Shown here one piece after another: positions 5,352 to 48,500 of a stretch of 64,000 nucleotides of DNA (positions are counted from its first letter, which is position 1; the number at the start of each line of letters is the position of its first letter). The translations under genes were made by a program, and so were the position numbers. The notes beneath the pieces are model-generated. The model ran no database searches and was not told the DNA's origin. It saw nothing but the letters and a program-made list of their open reading frames with translations. The stretch lies in assembly GCA_030141605.1 (NCBI GenBank), contig JAQGDQ010000094.1:372001-436000 (forward strand). The letters run 5' to 3'. Origin of the DNA: Tubiluchus corallicola (taxonomy: Eukaryota > Priapulida > Priapulimorpha > Priapulimorphida > Tubiluchidae).

Positions 5352-5524
5352 CTTGTCAGTTGTCAGTTGTCCGGTGCACATCGTTTGTCTCGTGCTCCGG
5401 TTGCTAATTATACCAGTTAGTGTTGAATAGATTGTGATTAGGCCGTGAGGCCAAGGCTGTACAAATTTACTTATAGTTAAAAGATACTACGTCGAACAAA
5501 GTATATGTTAAAAGACATACATGA

Positions 5525-7078
5525 ATGGCAAGGAAAAGTTGCACGCTTTGCAAAAGTGCAAAAAATCCAATAAATAAAAATCAGCTATTTCTTGCAACGT
5601 GCGAAAGGTGCTTCAAAAAACATAGGCAAACGACGAATATGGGAAATGATGGACACGAGGCGGCAGAAATTGTGTTTCCCGACTTCGTACTTGTTGGTGA
5701 TCCAGAGGGCGAACGATATAAACAAATGCTAATTGCCTTGCAAATAAAAACCAAAAATGACGAAAAAGAGAGTAAAAAGACAATTCAATGCTTGGAGTCA
5801 AAACTAGCTGCCAGCTATAAAGAGCAGTCAACTCTCATCGAAAAGGTTCATAAATTATCAACGGAACTCTCTGAACTACAAAAAAGAAAACGAAATGTAA
5901 GCAACCAAACAAGTGATAATTCCTCCAAAGATCCCAGTCACACAGATGAAGCAAGTCAAACTTTGCTTGTGAATGGAGACACCTCCTCATCGAAACACGG
6001 CAATAATGACCTTCCATCGCAGGGCGAAACCTTGCAGGAAAAGGAAACTTGCAATGCCACAATAACTGTGAATCAAAGAAGGAAAAATCATAAGACCATA
6101 CATGCAACCACTCAAACGCTAGTCCTGGGAGACTCACGGACCGTATACTTAAATCCAAAGGACATCGGGCAAAACGTCCAGGTACACTCATACAGAGGCT
6201 TAACATTAGAAGAGTTAAGCACAAAAGTGTTAAACCATTATCCAGCTATGAAGCTTGAAAATGTGATCATCGCTTGTGGTGTAAATGACATAAGACGGCT
6301 AGCGCAAAAATGCGACGAGGTTGGACAGCAAATCGACAAAGAATCATCAGTTAGAGACATCATTACAATTGCAGACAACTGTGCAAAAAACATTGCAAGT
6401 AAGTTTAAAGCTGCAAACATTTTTATTTGTAATATACCGCTGACTTCAAAAAGTAAGCATTTTAATGCAAAACCATGTAATATCTTTCTGACAAACGAGC
6501 TTATACGCTCTTTCAATGATGATCTAGTCTATTTAGCTAAAAAAAAGGGCTATTTATTGTGCAACATTCAAAGTCATTTTTTAGCTGAAGGGTTAATGGC
6601 AAGAGACGGTTTACATTTAAGTCGTGCTGGTGTATCAAAATTAGCAGAACGACTGAACTTATGTTTACACAATGATCCTAAGCGTTGGTACGTGAAAACA
6701 AGACGCAAGCCAATGTCCCATACAAACCCATACCAACACAATTCTGCAATTTCGCGCCTAAATAACTCGTTTAATTTACGTATTGGTTCATCTCACAATA
6801 CCAGCTATTCAGACGCAGTTAAGAAACCTGGTCTTCTCCCAACGCCAGTAATTAACGACCCACAGCGAACCTACTCCGTTTCGAACCGGAGAGAGCCATC
6901 TGAACGAAGCAGTTTGTACTACACAGAATCGGCTAAAGCTCATTATCCTAATAAATGTTCTACAACACTGCCAAGCCAAAATGAACCGCTGCTGTTAACT
7001 CAGGAACCAGTTCTAAAATCCGAGATTGAAAACATACTAACCAAAGCCTTTAAAGAGCTTATCTCCAAGTTCATATAG
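5525..7078 (+). CDS. LINE ORF1 protein with Cys-pair finger, coiled coil and SGNH esterase
   Basis: This 517-residue ORF1 is intact. Residues 6-29 hold two CxxC pairs (Cys6, Cys9, Cys26, Cys29), a probable zinc-binding module. Residues of about 70-125 are Lys/Glu/Leu-rich and likely form a coiled coil. Residues of about 200-370 form an SGNH (GDSL-like) hydrolase: the nucleophile block LVLGDSR is near residue 204, the GVND oxyanion block near 251, and the DGLHLS Asp-His block near 361-364. The C-terminus is basic and Ser/Asn-rich. Esterase-bearing ORF1 proteins are known from CR1-type LINEs, where they are thought to act in RNP assembly or membrane/lipid interaction; their substrate is unknown. 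An in-phase start is assumed at ATGGCAAGG; another ATG four bases upstream is in a different frame. Confidence 0.88.
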   Translation: MARKSCTLCKSAKNPINKNQLFLATCERCFKKHRQTTNMGNDGHEAAEIVFPDFVLVGDPEGERYKQMLIALQIKTKNDEKESKKTIQCLESKLAASYKEQSTLIEKVHKLSTELSELQKRKRNVSNQTSDNSSKDPSHTDEASQTLLVNGDTSSSKHGNNDLPSQGETLQEKETCNATITVNQRRKNHKTIHATTQTLVLGDSRTVYLNPKDIGQNVQVHSYRGLTLEELSTKVLNHYPAMKLENVIIACGVNDIRRLAQKCDEVGQQIDKESSVRDIITIADNCAKNIASKFKAANIFICNIPLTSKSKHFNAKPCNIFLTNELIRSFNDDLVYLAKKKGYLLCNIQSHFLAEGLMARDGLHLSRAGVSKLAERLNLCLHNDPKRWYVKTRRKPMSHTNPYQHNSAISRLNNSFNLRIGSSHNTSYSDAVKKPGLLPTPVINDPQRTYSVSNRREPSERSSLYYTESAKAHYPNKCSTTLPSQNEPLLLTQEPVLKSEIENILTKAFKELISKFI

Positions 7079-7174
7079 GCCTAGTATCGTTTAGCTTGGT
7101 TTTAGACATTACTCTGAACTTTAAAGCTAGTCTGCGTAAACCTGTTATAAAACTCTTTTTTTTACTATTCTATT

Positions 7175-10100
7175 ATGATTTTAATGATGACACTGAATAA
7201 CAGAAAATTTTTAGCACTGCTGCTAGTGAATTTTTACATAATATGGCAAAATAGGCCAATCCATCCTAACTCGTGTAAAGATTATAACGTAACAATTGTG
7301 TATACTAGTATTATAATAACAATTATCTCACCCACGTTATTACATAATAGGAAATATTTACTTCTTATAGTACTGTATTCTATACAAGCCCTTTTACTCG
7401 CAACCGATATTAGTATCCTTATGATCGTTCTAAAATTAATTTACCACGCATGTGTAACGTTCTACTGTGTAAGCTTGATACTATGCTGCCGTATTACTGC
7501 AAAAAAACTGCAAGTTAAAGTTATTTTATTTGTGTTAATAGGTACATTTTGGAAACCATACGAATTTACTTCTTGTATCATAGTTGATATTTCTAACGTA
7601 TCTTATCATAAAATTACCAAATTTATTTGTGATTATGGGAGCCTTTGTATATTTAACGCCAAATATCAAACAGTTAAGTTCTTTTATTGTAACTATGCTT
7701 ACGTCTTAGTTATACTACGTACATTACTATACATACTAAAACTGAAAATGATCTACGTAACAGTAATTTGTAATGTAATGACTAAAGGTAATTTAAACAA
7801 CTTTTTCATTGCTTTTCCTGTAAATAGCGATAGAATAAGACACTCTATGCAATTTATTTTAAAAAGATTTGTATCCATCTTAAAAGTTGTGTACCTCGGT
7901 GCTATAAGACAAATGCGTCATGTCAATCTAAAATACGTAGCACTAAAAAAATTGGAAAAATTACAGATTTCATCTAAATTTGAAAGCACTCTATACTCAT
8001 GTTCTGAACTGGCTTACATTTTAACCATAATTCGTTTACTACTTATACTTGGTGGTATCGAAACTAACCCTGGACCCATTTTGCCAAATAATAATAATAA
8101 TAACACCAACAATAATAATACCAGTGATGAGCTAAAAGAATTCATGATTACTTATAAAAAGAACATCAAATTTCTAAATATAAATATTCAAAGTCTCGTC
8201 AAAAAACACTGGCTGCTGAAAGATACAATTCACGCCACCGAAAATCTGATTGTAGGCATAACAGAAACTTGGCTACATAAACAAATACTTAGCAACACTA
8301 TAGAATTACCTAATCACACATTAATAAGAAGAGATCGATGTAAAAATAAGAAAGGTGGAGGGGTTGCGATGTATATACCTTCACACCTGAGACCACAAGA
8401 AATGAAAAGCATCAGAACCGGCAAGATTGAATCTGTTTGGTGCAGCATTGAGAACTATGTAATAGGAACTATATATAGACCACCCAATCTCAAACACAAA
8501 ACATTTTTCAAATACTTTAGTGAAGAACTAGAACGCAGTGTTTTCGAAAATAAAAAGTTCTTATAATGGGCGATTTCAACCTTGATATTTTAGCTACAAA
8601 CACACTGGCATACAAAACATACACCGAGCTCTTAAAACAATATAATGTCCACATACTTAACAACAATAAACCTACTCGAATTTCTAAAACATCAGCCACA
8701 GTAATCGACCATTTCATTTCGAATAGTAACAATAATTTCGTAGCATATGATACTTTTCCGTGTGATTATTCAGATCATCATTTCATAATATTAGTAGATA
8801 AAATGACCCCACAGCATAATAATAACCAAAATTCAGTCTGGCATTTAATGAGAGACTACGCCCAATACAACAAACATTCATACTTAATCGACTTAGCAAA
8901 AATGAACTGGACCTCCGTATATATGACTGATAAAATAGATACACAAGTTAATATTCTGACATATAATGTCGAATATTGCCTTAATGTACATGCACCATAT
9001 AAAAACGTAAAGCAAATCCCACAACAAAGCAAACTCTATAACGAAAGTACCTGGACAACACCTGAACTTGACAAACTAAGAATAGCGAAAAACAGAATGT
9101 ATAATATATGGGAAAAGAACAAAACTAAAAACAATCATAACAATTATAAAAAAAAAGAGAAATCAATTTAATAATCTTAATAAATGCTTGAAAAATAAAC
9201 ATATACAACAACAATGTAAAAACGCAACAAATACCAAAGAAAAATGGAAAATTATTAACAATGTAATAAATAAATGCCGTAACAAACTAATGCGTGTTGA
9301 CGAAATTAAGATCAACAACACTGTTATTACAAAACCCAAAGATATTGCCAACGCGCTAAATGCAATATTCCTGAATCTTGGAAATTTTAAGGGAGTGGCT
9401 TCTCATATTAGCAATAATATAATTAATAAATTAAAAAACAAATCGTCTAACACAGTATTCTCGTTCAAAAGCGTCACAGTAGGAGAAATTAACGACATAT
9501 TAAATAACCTAAGTTCCAACAAAGGGAGTGGACCATCAGATATTCCTATCAAAATTCTAAAAGATAGCGCATCTGTAATAGCCCCGCATATGACTTACAT
9601 TACTAATCAGATAATTATGAGAGGCGAATTTCCAACGGTATGTAAAATGGCAAACGTGACTCCAATCCATAAAAAAGATCCAAAATGTGATCCCATGAAT
9701 TATCGCCCAATTTCCGTAATCCATTGTTTCGGTAAAGTTTGGGAAAGGGTAATTTATGATCAGATAAATTCATATGTAAATAAACATGAACTTTTATCAA
9801 AACATCAGTTTGGCTTCCGTAAACACCATTCAACCATTGACGCCCTAATACACACAACAGAAAATTGGAGACATAGTTTAGACAACAAGCACTACATTTT
9901 AGCAGCATTTTTGGATTTAAGTAAAGCTTTCGATAGCATTAATCACGAACTACTTTACGATAATTTAAAACAAATCGGATTAGATTCGATATCGTTAAAA
10001 CTGATACAAAATTATCTCAAAGATAGACAACAACGAGTAAAGTTAGATACAACCAACTTTTCTGACTGGGCCACGTTAAATAGAGGTATACCGCAAGGAA

Positions 10101-11138
10101 CACTACTAGGTCCGTTATTATTTTGCCTATATATAAACAACATATCCAGTGTATTAAAACACTCACAAATAACGCAATACGCTGATGACACTACAATCTA
10201 CATAGCCCATGAAAATGTCCAAACTGCAAAAAATTATTTAGAAGAAGATATAAAAAAATATAAATATGGCATTTAGTCATTACAAGCTAAAAATGAATAA
10301 TGACAAAACAGAATTCATGATACTGTCACCCTCATTAAATACTAATGATGCATCATCAACCACTTTGACAATAGATAATGCTGTAATCAAACAAACTAAC
10401 AATGTTAAATTCCTGGGCATACAAGTAGACAATAATCTTTCATGGGATGATCACTTTAATAACATATACACAAAAATGGCATCTAGCACATCATATCTCC
10501 GACAAGTTAAAGGGCAACTAACAAAGGACACTAAAACACTAATATATAAAACTTTAGTTCTACCACACTTCTTATATGGATGTACGCTACTTCAAAAAAC
10601 CAAAAGAGAAAATTACTTAAAATTAAATCTCCTTCAAAACTATGCGTTGAGATTGATAGCTGGGTACTCATACAAACACAAGGCAGGTAGACAAAAATTC
10701 AAAGCTTCAACAACTAACCTGAGAAAAACTTTAAAATTCCCAATCATTGAAGCACACAAAGAATATTTTACTCTGCTTTTTATATTTAAATACATTAACA
10801 ACATCAGCAAACCATTCCAGAATAACAGATTTACCTTTTTTCCAAATCCTATCGTTAATTCCAGAACATTCAATCTAAAACAAATTAGGACAAATACCCA
10901 CTATGGAACGAACTCTGTAATCAAACAAGCAATTTTACTTTGGAATTCTCTACCATTACAGGTTAAACAAATCAAGTCCCTATCAGCATTTAAAACAAAA
11001 TTAAAATCACTAATATTAACCAGATATGAAATACCATCACACCAGTACGACAACATACACACTAATTCCGAATTCATATACCCACGGCCATATTTATTAA
11101 ATCATAGTTTTTTATTTTTTTTATTTTTTTGTGTATAG
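7175..11138 (+). pseudogene. LINE ORF2: hydrophobic leader, 2A-like motif, endonuclease, reverse transcriptase (three frame breaks)
   Basis: The ORF begins with about 292 very hydrophobic residues of unknown function, then GGIETNPGP (residues 293-301, 8051-8077), a 2A-like ribosome-skipping motif. The APE-type endonuclease follows: the ITETWLHK block near 8255-8282, GDFNLDIL at 8569-8592, an IDH block near 8705 and DYSDHH near 8767. The reverse transcriptase shows MNYRPIS, AFLDLSKAFDS (motif A, about 9905), RGIPQGTLLGPLLF (motif B, about 10085) and YADD (motif C, about 10179). The C-terminal WNSLP region is near 10940. Frame breaks occur at 8564-8568 (TAATG stop/start overlap), in the A9 run at 9148-9156 and in the A7 run at 10252-10258. 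As printed it cannot encode one continuous enzyme. Confidence 0.85.
8051..8077 (+). other. 2A-like ribosome-skipping motif (GGIETNPGP)
   Basis: The codons read Gly-Gly-Ile-Glu-Thr-Asn-Pro-Gly-Pro, preceded by the hydrophobic run TIIRLLLIL. The canonical 2A core is D-[V/I]-E-x-N-P-G-P, so every position matches except the first, where Gly replaces Asp. 2A motifs at the ORF2 N-terminus are known in some CR1-type LINEs, for example in sea urchin. Cleavage would occur between the last Gly and Pro, releasing the endonuclease-RT from its leader. Confidence 0.75.
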
Positions 11139-11310
11139 TTGTAAATATGTTTGATTTTATTCGTCATTACTGCACAGTAGTTTAGATTGCACTGACGCAT
11201 TTGCCTTCAGCAGTGTAAGTTTTTATTAACTAACACTGATTGATTATCTCTATAAAGTTTTTATCAGTGATTATCAATGTTTTTAATGGCAAATAAATAA
11301 TAAAACAAGA

Positions 11311-14298: not shown

Positions 14299-17200
14299 AT
14301 GGCGGCGTCCAGTCCTCAAAAACCTTGGGAAACTGCGTATCAAGGCATTTCAGGGCTTACACCGAGTACATTAACGTCTACGTTAGTATATTTTTATGTG
14401 CAACATTTACTAAAATTTGGTGCGTTGTGTCATTGGTTACAGAAGGCGTAGCCGACTCGATAAGTCATTTATTTCACATTACATAGACATTTTATTTTTC
14501 TCCAATTTGCGTCACAAATTTTCGTTTTACAAAAAATAACTTTTGTCTGTGGAGATGGGGCGAGGAAAGACCGTAGGTCATCTACTCACTCACCCCTTAT
14601 AATTTAATGTCGATGACAGAAAAAGCATTGATGACACAGGATGCAAATAAACTAACAAAATAAAGCAATAACAAAAGCAGAATTATAAAAGCAAACATAA
14701 CAACAATAGCATAAGCGAAAAAAAAGAATAAACAAACAGTGGTAAAAATAAAATGATGATGAAATTAATCACAATGCCGTAATTTATGTAGATTTCTCAT
14801 ATTAAACGAATTTACACGAAATATTAGATACACATTTACAATAGTTTCATGTAGTAGTAGTAGTAGTAGTTAATCTCCAGTAGTTATAATATAACTTTTG
14901 AGACAAATAGTTCTTCGACTGTAATTGCGACAAATTGCACATTTAATAGATTGTCATCAACACCTAGGTGACTCCACTGGCAAGTTTTCTCACTATAATA
15001 TGTAATCCAGCATCCTTGTTATAGGCATGTTCCAATTAGCACGGTGATTAAATTTCAATGGATGATGTTCATAGTGTCTATCTAATTTTGATTTAAATAA
15101 ATTTACAGATGTTGCTGTTCTCACATCACAGGGCAATCTATTCCAGATTTCTGGCATCGTACAAGAAAAATAGTCGTATTTACCAGTTTTGTGTGCAGTT
15201 CTTGATTTATGAAGAATAGGACCTGATCTTGCTGTACGATGTACTTCTAATTTAACAGGACAATCATCACAGCTGTAAACTCCAGATACATATTTGTATA
15301 CATCAATTAGTTGGCCACGTAAACGTCTAAAAGCTAATGTAGTTAAACCTATTCGTTTTAACTGACTTTCATACGTCAAGTTCATTAGTTCCGGTAACAT
15401 GTTGAAAGCTCTCATTTGGACAGTTTCGACTGGGTCCACTATATATGCCCTAGGACTATTCCAAATACTACTTCCATACTCCACTTTTGATCGCACAAGT
15501 GCCACATATAGAAGCTTGAAAGTTTGCAGATCTAGGTACTTGAAATTCCTCCTTATTAAAGCATTGTTTCGTTTGGCACTCTTTATGATTTCTGCTATGT
15601 GATCTTTAAAATTTAGTTTATTATCAAGTAATAATCCAAGGTCTTTCTCACAAGCACTAAAGTCCAATTCTGCCGGAATGCCACTTGCATCATACATTTT
15701 GTATTTATATTCATATCCTGCTCCCACAGATACAACCTTACACTTGTTGGGATGGAACTGCATACCATTTTCAACTGCCCAATCACAGAGCCCTTCTAGA
15801 TCCAATTGAAGATCATTACAGCTGGTAAAAGAATCAGATTCAGACCAGATTTTGCTGTCGTCGGCAAAAAGACGAAGAGAATTACTCACACAACTAGGCA
15901 AGTCATTTATAAATACCACAAATAAACACGGACCTAATACCGAACCTTGCGCTACACCACTAGTAATCAAGGACTCAGTCGATTTGCAACCATCAACACA
16001 CGTACATTGACTTCTATTTTCTAAGAAGTTTACTATCCACTGTAAAACTGAACCAGTTATACCACAATTTTTAAGTTTTGCAAACAGAAAGTGATGAGGT
16101 ACAACATCAAACGCCTTTTTCAGGTCCAGTAGTATTATATCAAAAGGCTTATTAGCATCTTTTAACTCAAACCATGCATCGTAACATTGTAACAGTTGGG
16201 TAACCGTTGTTCTACCCTTAACAAACCCATGTTGTTCTTCACAAATAATGTTGTATCTTATCAGATGGTTCATTATATGTTTCCGCATGATTTTTTCTGT
16301 CACCTTATTAATTGTATTTAGTAAGCTAACTGGCCTGTAGTTCGATGGATCTGACTTGTCCCCTTTTTTATGAATGGGAGTAACCTGTGCCACCTTCCAT
16401 TGTCCAGGTAACTGACAATCAGCAAAAGACCTATCCAGTAAGGTGTATATAGGCTTAAAAAGCACAGTTCTACATTCATTTAAAATACGTGGATGGTAAC
16501 TATCTGGAGCGGATTTGTTTACATTGAGATTTTGTAACTCATAAAGCACCTCTTCTTCAGTTATGGAAACATTGCTGATATCAGGATATTGTTGCACTGT
16601 AGTTACTTCATAGTCAGAAGCGTTGGGACTAAATACACTAATGAAAAAATCGTTCAAAATTTGTGCCTTCTCCTCTGAATCAGAGACAAGAATACCTTGG
16701 GAATTCTTCAGTGAATGAATTCTAGACTTTGGCTTCCGAAGCGCATTGATATACTGCCAGAATGCCTTGGGATTACTCTTGCAATTACTTGCTAAAATAC
16801 GTTCATATCTTTTTCTCGCAGTAGTTATAAGGTTTTTCACCACATTACGCCTTGCAGCATACCGTTCATAAGAAAGTTTTGTTCTTCGTCTCTTCCAGTC
16901 AAAAAACAACTTTTCTTTCTCCTTAATACAGCCAAGCAACTGCTTAGTTAACCAAGGAGGCCGAGGTCGACTACTCTTATTATAAAAACTTGGATAGAAA
17001 CTAGGCACATATTCATCAACAACTGACATGTACACATTATGAAATTTTGTCCACATATCATCAAGAGTAAGATTACTATTTAAAACATTAATCCAATCAA
17101 CTTGGCTAAATGCATTACACATACTTTCATGTACAATATATAGGCTTTTATAGTGAAAGGGCCTACAATGAACATAATACAAATAAGCTTCTTATTGTTT

Positions 17201-29370: not shown

Positions 29371-40293
<10,923 letters not shown>

Positions 40294-45240: not shown

Positions 45241-45587
45241 TGCAGCTCATTGTGCACTTCGTGTCAATATTTGATCAGCTCACAGTTAAAACCGTACATT
45301 TATCATAGTTAAGAGCATTAACGGGTTATCATGGTTTCAGCTATTCATTTCTTAATTTTATTTTTATTGTAGGTTTGTGGTGTGTCTTGGTATTATGTGA
45401 TGGATCTTTTGCAGAGGCAACAAAACAACATTAGCCAATTTCGTGTTTTCTACTTGGCTCAGTTGGCTGTGACTGTGTTAAAAATTTGAATCTAAACTTG
45501 GCAGTTTCTAAGTTTTATACTCCAGTTAAGTGAGTGTGGTATTAAATTTAGTGATTTTTTATTGGACTGGACAGATTCTGTTCTTAC

Positions 45588-48500
45588 ATGGCAAAATTAC
45601 TAATGGTGCGAAGGTTGGGTGCGCCAACCGCCATTCCATCTGTGGTGCAAGAGATACGAGTGACTTGTCTAGGAACTAGCAGACCGCTGCAACAACATTC
45701 GCCAAGTAACAAGGACATTGACAGATTGGCAATAAATAGTCCTTTAAGTTCTTGTTACAGTATTAGAAATTATTATTGCTTGTCAGCACAGCAGTATGTT
45801 TTTAAAAATGCAACTCATTGTCGTTTTTATGGATTGAAGTTTGAAAGCCGCTTAATGAGCTCAGCTGCCAGATTCGGATTATTAGTCTCACGGTTGCTAA
45901 GGCTGAGGTACCTATTACTTGGTTCAGCAATTGGAGGTGGAGTGGCATTAGGAAATACATACGAGGCTTGGAAAGAAAGACTTCCTGACATGAGCTGGAT
46001 GAAAGAACATTTGCCTAACAGCAATGATTACAATAAGTTTGTCAACTGGATGAAAGAGCTAATGCCTAGTAAAGAATATTACGAAAAGCTTAGTGACTGG
46101 TTCACGCAGAAGAAAGGTAGTATTCAAATACCAGATGGAAGTGAATATATACGTGTAGGAAGAGAGAAACTGTCAGAATGGAGAGATAACTCTGCCGAGT
46201 GGATAAGTTCTGCAGGTCATATCGTTAGTAATGTGGTACAAGGAGGTGATGCTGGTGCTTTTCCCGAAGAGTCCACAGTAACCACAAAGGCAGCACCATC
46301 TGTAATGTCTTTCAATCCGTTTCAGTCAAAGACGAAAGATGCCGATGATGACTATCATGTGCTAACAGACAAGGAGAAGTTAGAAGAACTGCAAAATGAA
46401 CTTATGCAAGTCCAACTTAAATATCAACGAGAAATTGAACGTTTAGAGAAAGAAAATAGAGAATTAAAGAAGCAGTTACTGATCAGAGCTGAGAAGCATT
46501 CTAGGGTGAAAAGAAAGTTTAAGAAGTCTCTGATTGACATGTACTCCGAAGTTCTAGATGAACTTTCCATATATGACTGCAGCTACAATACACAGGATCA
46601 TTTGCCAAGAGTTGTTGTTGTTGGTGATCAAAGTTCCGGAAAAACTAGTGTCCTGGAAATGATTGCCAGAGCACGTATTTTCCCACGAGGTTCTGGCGAG
46701 ATGATGACACGAGCGCCTGTAAAGGTAACTTTGAGCGAAGGTCCATATCATATTGCTACATTTAAGGATAGCACTCGTGAATTTGATCTGTCAAAAGAAT
46801 CAGATTTGGTTGAATTGCGAAAAGAAGTAGAATTACGTATGAGGAACAGTGTCCGGCAAGGGAAAACTGTGAGTAGCGAAACCATTTCCATGACTGTGAA
46901 AGGCCCTGGTCTGCAGAGGGTAGTTCTAGTTGATTTACCAGGCATTATTAGCACGCAGACAACAGAAATGGCTGATGATACTAGAGATTCTATCCATGGC
47001 ATTTGCAGGACTTATATGGAGAATCCAAATGCTATAATTCTTTGCATTCAGGATGGTTCAATAGATGCAGAACGAAGCAACGTTACGGATCTTGTGCGAG
47101 AAATGGATCCAAATGGAAAACGAACTATTTTTGTTCTAACTAAAGTTGATTTAGCTGAAGAGAACATGTTCAACCCAGACCGACTAAAGAAGATTCTAGA
47201 AGGAAAACTGTTTCCCATGAAAGCTTTAGGATATTTTGCTGTCGTGACCGGTCGTGGCAATGTGAATGATAGTATTGCAACAATACGTGATTATGAGGAA
47301 AATTTTTTCCGAAATTCCAAACTTTTTAAAGATATGAACTTTAAGGCTACACAGCTGACAACCCAAAATATGAGTATGGCAGTATCTGCGTGCTTTTGGA
47401 AAATGGTAAAAGAGTCAGTCGAACAGCAAGCTGATGCTTTCAAGGCAACACGTTTCAATTTGGAAACAGAATGGAAAAACAATTTTCCGCGAGTGCGAGA
47501 ACTTGATCGTGATGAGCTGTTTGAGAAGGCAAGGGGAGAGGTTCTAGACGAGATTATAAATCTAAGCCTAGTTACACCCAGAGAATGGGAAGAAGCTTTT
47601 TACAATCATCTCTGGCAGTCTGTCAATACCTACATGTTTGAAAACATTTACATACCCGCTGCACAAGCTGATAGTCCGGGAACTTTTAACACAATGGTTG
47701 ATATCCGATTGAAACAGTGGGCAGATCAGGTTTTGCCAAAACGATGCGTAGAAGTGGGGTGGGATACGCTAATGATGCAGTTTCGGGATCTCATTGATAA
47801 AGATTGTGAAAGTAAGGATCATGATGCTTTGTTTGATAAGTTAAAATTAGCCGTCATCGATGAAGCAGCCAGTCAACATCGTTGGGACAGGAAGGCTCCA
47901 GATTCTCTGCGTGTGATTCAACTGAATGCTTTAGAGGATCGGTCAGTGCCTGATAAGCAAACATGGGATCAGGCCATTACGTTCATGGAAAAATTTTTAA
48001 GGTTAGTATTTACTTTTTTTAATTGCATAACCAAACAGTAAACAAAGTAAAGGTCTTTTTTGTTCTAAATGTGTGTTGAATGCCTTTACTATAGTTTTCA
48101 GGTGGCATTATAAATATTGAATTAAGATACATTATAGAAAATTTCCATTGATTTGACATTGAAAATTGTCACCGAAAGGGGAAATGTGATAGACTAATGT
48201 TTATTCATTAAAGAGAGAAACTTGACCAGACTGAGTTGTTGACGAAGCAGTTAATGGGACCAAGTTTAAGAGAGCAGTGGATGTTCTGGAAATCCATATC
48301 AGATGAACAGAGAAAATGGCGTGCCACCATGTTTGAACTGAGCAAGATCATACAGGGTGAAGAAAAAGCGAGACCCATTCTAACACTAGAAGAACTGACA
48401 GCAACAAGAAAAAATCTGCAAGTGAGTTGGATCATAATTAGCACTGAATTAACTTTCAAACCTAGTTGAATTAAATAATGACTTGTATCTGAGAAAGATC

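Follow-up and report, generated by a model that had tools for sequence, protein, structure and literature searches.

2A-like (StopGo) peptides have already been described in LINEs, namely in L1Tc (Heras et al. 2006) and by Odon et al. 2013, both as cited in PMC11512398 and PMC12846837. In viruses, the core was widened by Li et al. 2026 to (D/G/C/N)(V/I)ExNPGP, and Gly at position p12 was found to be as prevalent as Asp among viral StopGo sequences (PMC12846837). The same work reports that D12G and D12C had been tested for function before, D12G being an established functional variant, and describes an L-rich class (motif 5) that finishes in (A/G/S)G at p12; motifs 1, 3, 4 and 6 were assayed, motif 5 not being among them (PMC12846837). 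Similarly, the 2A of DHAV-1 works with GxExNPGP (PMC6249498). The D12A change abolishes activity in F2A, and the context of p12 therefore matters; in the F2A structure Glu14 touches rRNA, and E14Q is only partly active. In sea urchin NLR, the 2A also acts as a signal sequence, and the protein that follows it is partitioned in this way (Roulston et al. 2016, PMC4981915). For the LINE ZfL2-1, the ORF1 esterase was found to bind acidic membranes, and a membrane step in LINE replication was proposed (PMC3905857).

The 64-kb stretch of Tubiluchus corallicola DNA analysed here (the window) carries a LINE in which the motif GGIETNPGP, in all probability a 2A/StopGo peptide of the leucine-rich type with Gly at p12, lies within ORF2, between a leader and the endonuclease and reverse transcriptase. 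The bounds of the element were taken from the initial annotation, and its 3' tail (AATAAATAATAAAA, at about 11290) was read from the sequence; a search for a target-site duplication around this copy found none. The features are as follows.

5360–11310, plus strand: LINE of putative CR1/L2 type (family A), near full length, ORF2 frameshifted; from the ORF layout and Pfam GDSL, endonuclease and RVT_1 matches
5525–7078, plus strand: ORF1, 517 aa, with a Cys-rich N-terminus and a GDSL/SGNH esterase (GDS, GVND and DGLH blocks visible)
7175–8074, plus strand: ORF2 leader in an open frame, 300 residues ending in NPG, with several hydrophobic segments and no Pfam match
7991–8077, plus strand: predicted 2A/StopGo region, the last hydrophobic segment LAYILTIIRLLLIL plus the core GIETNPG/P
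8051–8077, plus strand: GGIETNPGP, with the core octapeptide GIETNPGP at 8054–8077; at the predicted skip one codon ends at 8074 and the next starts at 8075
8078–8134, plus strand: Asn-rich linker between the 2A and the endonuclease, from the sequence
8135–8566, plus strand: start of the endonuclease in the frame of the motif, with a frameshift near 8550 and a TAA at 8564–8566; other copies remain open here
8554–9171, plus strand: C-terminal part of the endonuclease in another frame (PF14529, Exo_endo_phos_2)
9086–10276, plus strand: reverse transcriptase in a further frame (RVT_1, E = 1e-32)
10254–11138, plus strand: C-terminal part of ORF2 in a further frame, joined to the reverse transcriptase in the intact sister ORF2 (L069)

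The clade name CR1/L2 was assigned from the domain layout and is to be read as probable. An esterase of the GDSL/SGNH type in ORF1 was recognised through PF00657, which scored above the Pfam cut-off in a sister ORF1, the match in the window copy (PF13472, E = 4e-4) falling below it. In ORF2, an APE endonuclease and a reverse transcriptase were found above the cut-off in the sister L069 (PF03372 and RVT_1), and RVT_1 also in the window.

The nucleotides GGTGGTATCGAAACTAACCCTGGACCC encode GGIETNPGP at 8051–8077 within an open frame of 7151–8566, ahead of the endonuclease and downstream of a hydrophobic run (AYILTIIRLLLIL directly precedes the motif), as had been stated in the initial annotation. 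No other NPGP occurs in any of the six frames of the 64 kb. The first ATG of the frame, 96 nt past the ORF1 stop, is at 7175, and counting from it gives the 300 residues that had been placed ahead of the Gly–Pro junction (8074/8075), the bond predicted to be skipped. GIETNPGP agrees with the widened core in frame, and LLLILG-G resembles, by eye and against the published description, the L-rich class ending in (A/G/S)G at p12; the peptide is additionally conserved at the amino acid level across related coding sequences, as detailed below. The earlier reading of ORF2 held for the motif and the endonuclease start, which share a frame, but this frame stops at 8566 and the remainder lies in three others. 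The shifts occur near 8550, 9140 and 10260, each within an A-run, and may for this reason be either real decay or assembly errors. Their position in A-runs resembles long-read errors, and the shift near 9140 is also present in other copies. Being frameshifted downstream of the motif, the window copy in its assembled form is unable to produce the enzyme.

Elsewhere in the window, an OPA1-type mitochondrial dynamin was observed in a long single open frame (45555–48041, plus strand; OPA1_C and Dynamin_N), together with the reverse transcriptase of another LINE, only distantly related to the first (14993–17191, minus strand; RVT_1, 732-codon frame) and a further RT-like fragment (31531–32076, plus strand). 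The Rfam search of the 64-kb window gave no match.

The pattern RTN-GAR-NNN-AAY-CCN-GGN-CC, which encodes (V/I/M)ExNPGP, was matched 57 times in the 343.5-Mb genome, against 6 matches for the reversed pattern, and the Cys-type pattern 20 times against 0 for its control. Most of the excess of 57 over 6 belongs to the window LINE or its sisters, in which the ORF2 position of the motif is always the same. Some of the other 2A-like matches (L011, L026 and L037) were rejected as noise, as they contained stops or had no enzyme downstream. One and the same locus recurred in five nested contigs (C1796, C2016, C2136, C2140 and C2209); the assembly is thus redundant, so that matches of 100% are not all separate copies and copy counts are inflated. 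An alignment of other copies had been proposed in order to decide between GGIETNPGP and GDIETNPGP, and it settled on the former, with Gly at p12 in 22 of 22 distinct family A copies; GGIETNPGP is therefore the state of the family rather than a change from GDIETNPGP peculiar to the window copy. The initial doubt over Gly in place of Asp was mostly removed by the published data on p12 = G and D12G, the skipping of this exact peptide staying a prediction.

At least four LINE families carry the motif, as GGIETNPGP in family A, GGIESNPGP in B, GCIESNPGP in C and GCTETNPGP in D, whose endonuclease and reverse transcriptase regions are 55–61% identical to one another. The sister families are located as follows.

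L069–L072: family B, GGIESNPGP, with an intact ORF2 and a leader of 221 residues to NPGP
L022, L024, L031 and L075: family C, GCIESNPGP
L073, L074 and L077–L088 (e.g., G000:C1171:14985–15010, minus strand): family D, GCTETNPGP in about 15 places

The ORF2 of L069 comprises 1219 codons (1218 aa) and holds the leader, 2A, endonuclease and reverse transcriptase in one frame (Exo_endo_phos and RVT_1), and several family D copies have open frames of 983–1141 codons. Family D has fixed Cys at p12 together with Thr at p13, and this Thr is covered neither by the published StopGo core nor by the rare variants listed for it. Single relics were also found with GCVECNPGP (L090) and GCVEINPGP (L028), and a distant one (L016) with AGDIELNPGP followed by a weak endonuclease match. 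In a five-taxon tree p12 was left unpolarised, the sole outgroup being on a very long branch. The string LL(I)xG[G/C]xE[T/S]NPGP is kept in all of the families A–D. Between families, the core octapeptide presented pS values of 0.65–1.0 and pN values of 0.06–0.18, compared with a pN of about 0.5–0.66 for most of the leader. Synonymous sites are saturated, yet NPGP, Glu14, Gly at p11 and the Leu/Ile run are fixed across families, and the flanks are not. Since the residues of NPGP are constant although encoded by different codons, selection has acted on the peptide in the frame of the motif.

Several hydropathy segments above 1.6 (19-residue mean) were found in the leaders of families A, B and D and of the C-type chimera described below, the last one in the A, B and C leaders being the 2A run itself; beyond the leader, ORF2 is essentially devoid of such segments. 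The family A leader carries a net charge of +23 (computed on copy L049). The several hydrophobic segments and the net positive charge suggest that the leader is probably a membrane-bound protein, its location being a predicted one. Neither the window leader nor that of a sister matched Pfam, AlphaFold gave a mean pLDDT of 39 for the family B leader, and BLASTP of the A against the B leader returned weak, composition-prone matches only (E = 3e-5, 28%). Homology of the leaders is accordingly proposed only near the 2A and between family C and the chimera. In the chimeric copies (L063–L066 and L014), the match to family A starts only at window position 7906, and the leader upstream of it is that of family C; the two are fused in frame at shared RQM residues, which gives an open leader of 240 residues ahead of GGIETNPGP. 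These copies have the joint in common, and their mutual similarity stops at different upstream points. The in-frame joint of a C leader to the 2A and endonuclease of family A indicates that the leader is a module that can be exchanged without loss of frame across the 2A. Pairwise dN/dS values for the leader in chimera-related copies were mostly 0.35–1.1, compared with 0.34–0.73 for the endonuclease in decayed copies of this kind; any constraint on the leader would thus be weak to moderate, similar to or weaker than that on the endonuclease in the same decayed copies.

That the octapeptide arose by chance within a decaying repeat is suggested by nothing beyond the frameshifts of the window copy, and can practically be dismissed, given the 57 against 6 matches genome-wide and the same placement in separate families; it is refuted by the conservation of the peptide. 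A conserved ORF2 peptide that does not skip, and is kept for another reason, such as the end of a membrane anchor or a linker, is improbable. It would fit the presence of GGIATNPGP in L057/L059 and L060: the E14A change (window position 8061) is common to these copies, as is one further diagnostic difference. Since the 5' junction of L060 is its own and the flank there is unrelated, the E14A source made at least two insertions; the lineage was thus still mobile, although its 2A is probably dead. It may be that skipping is not needed in cis, that it is supplied in trans or that Ala is tolerated at p14. Against a peptide without skipping stands the fixation of NPGP, Glu14 and Gly at p11 at saturated synonymous divergence, not extended to the flanks, which is the pattern of a working 2A.

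Partial skipping for dual targeting, in which the leader serves as a signal-anchor, the unskipped product is tethered to the membrane and the skipped product is cytosolic, is a less likely though conceivable reading. The multi-segment hydrophobic leader with the 2A itself as its final hydrophobic segment, the precedent of a 2A doubling as a signal sequence in sea urchin NLR (PMC4981915) and the membrane binding of the ORF1 esterase in the related ZfL2-1 (PMC3905857) are in its favour, but the viral examples of the motif assayed in the literature mostly displayed near complete skipping. The preferred reading, StopGo parting the leader from the enzyme, would proceed by the published tunnel mechanism: the nascent ORF2 chain (...YILTIIRLLLILGGIETNPG) would lodge in the ribosome exit tunnel, the Gly–Pro bond would be left unmade and the leader of about 300 residues freed, and translation would resume at Pro to give a separate endonuclease/reverse transcriptase. 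With the leader probably bound for a membrane, the enzyme would be released from the leader by skipping, and whatever product failed to skip would remain tethered. As a tentative extension, a swappable multi-pass membrane leader might draw ORF2 translation to the membrane, with StopGo setting the amounts of freed and tethered enzyme, and with CTETNPGP used in family D.

As far as the citing papers describe the 2As of APE-type non-LTR retrotransposons, both those and the present ones are in-frame 2A-like peptides associated with LINE proteins; the present ones differ in having Gly (A and B) or Cys (C and D) at p12 and a multi-hydrophobic leader of 220–300 residues, a comparison that draws on the citing papers rather than on the details in Odon et al. 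2013. With viral motif 5 they share an L/I-rich hexapeptide ending in G, followed by G(V/I)ExNPGP (PMC12846837). In contrast to viral StopGo (PMC12846837), p15 is Thr or Ser and not the preferred Pro, and the host element is a LINE, not an RNA virus. The sea urchin NLR 2A is likewise hydrophobic, and the present one may also double as a membrane-targeting segment; however, the former is a 26-residue N-terminal signal (PMC4981915), whereas the latter closes a long multi-segment retrotransposon leader. ZfL2-1 and the present LINEs have in common an ORF1 GDSL/SGNH esterase and an ORF2 with APE endonuclease and reverse transcriptase, the leader and 2A in ORF2 being a feature of the latter (PMC3905857). 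A 2A in LINEs and Gly at p12 in viruses are already known. Features that seem to be new are the fixation of Thr at p13 in family D, the exchange of the leader in frame and, provisionally, the long multi-segment leader itself.

Among the related cellular elements of this one genome, p12 is occupied by Gly, Cys and probably Asp, and p13 can be Thr; such naturally occurring variation lends itself to tests of the tolerance of the core outside viruses. A membrane step in LINE biology was earlier hinted at by the membrane-binding ORF1 esterase, and a leader that is open in several families and has been swapped upstream of the 2A links StopGo to this unexplored step.
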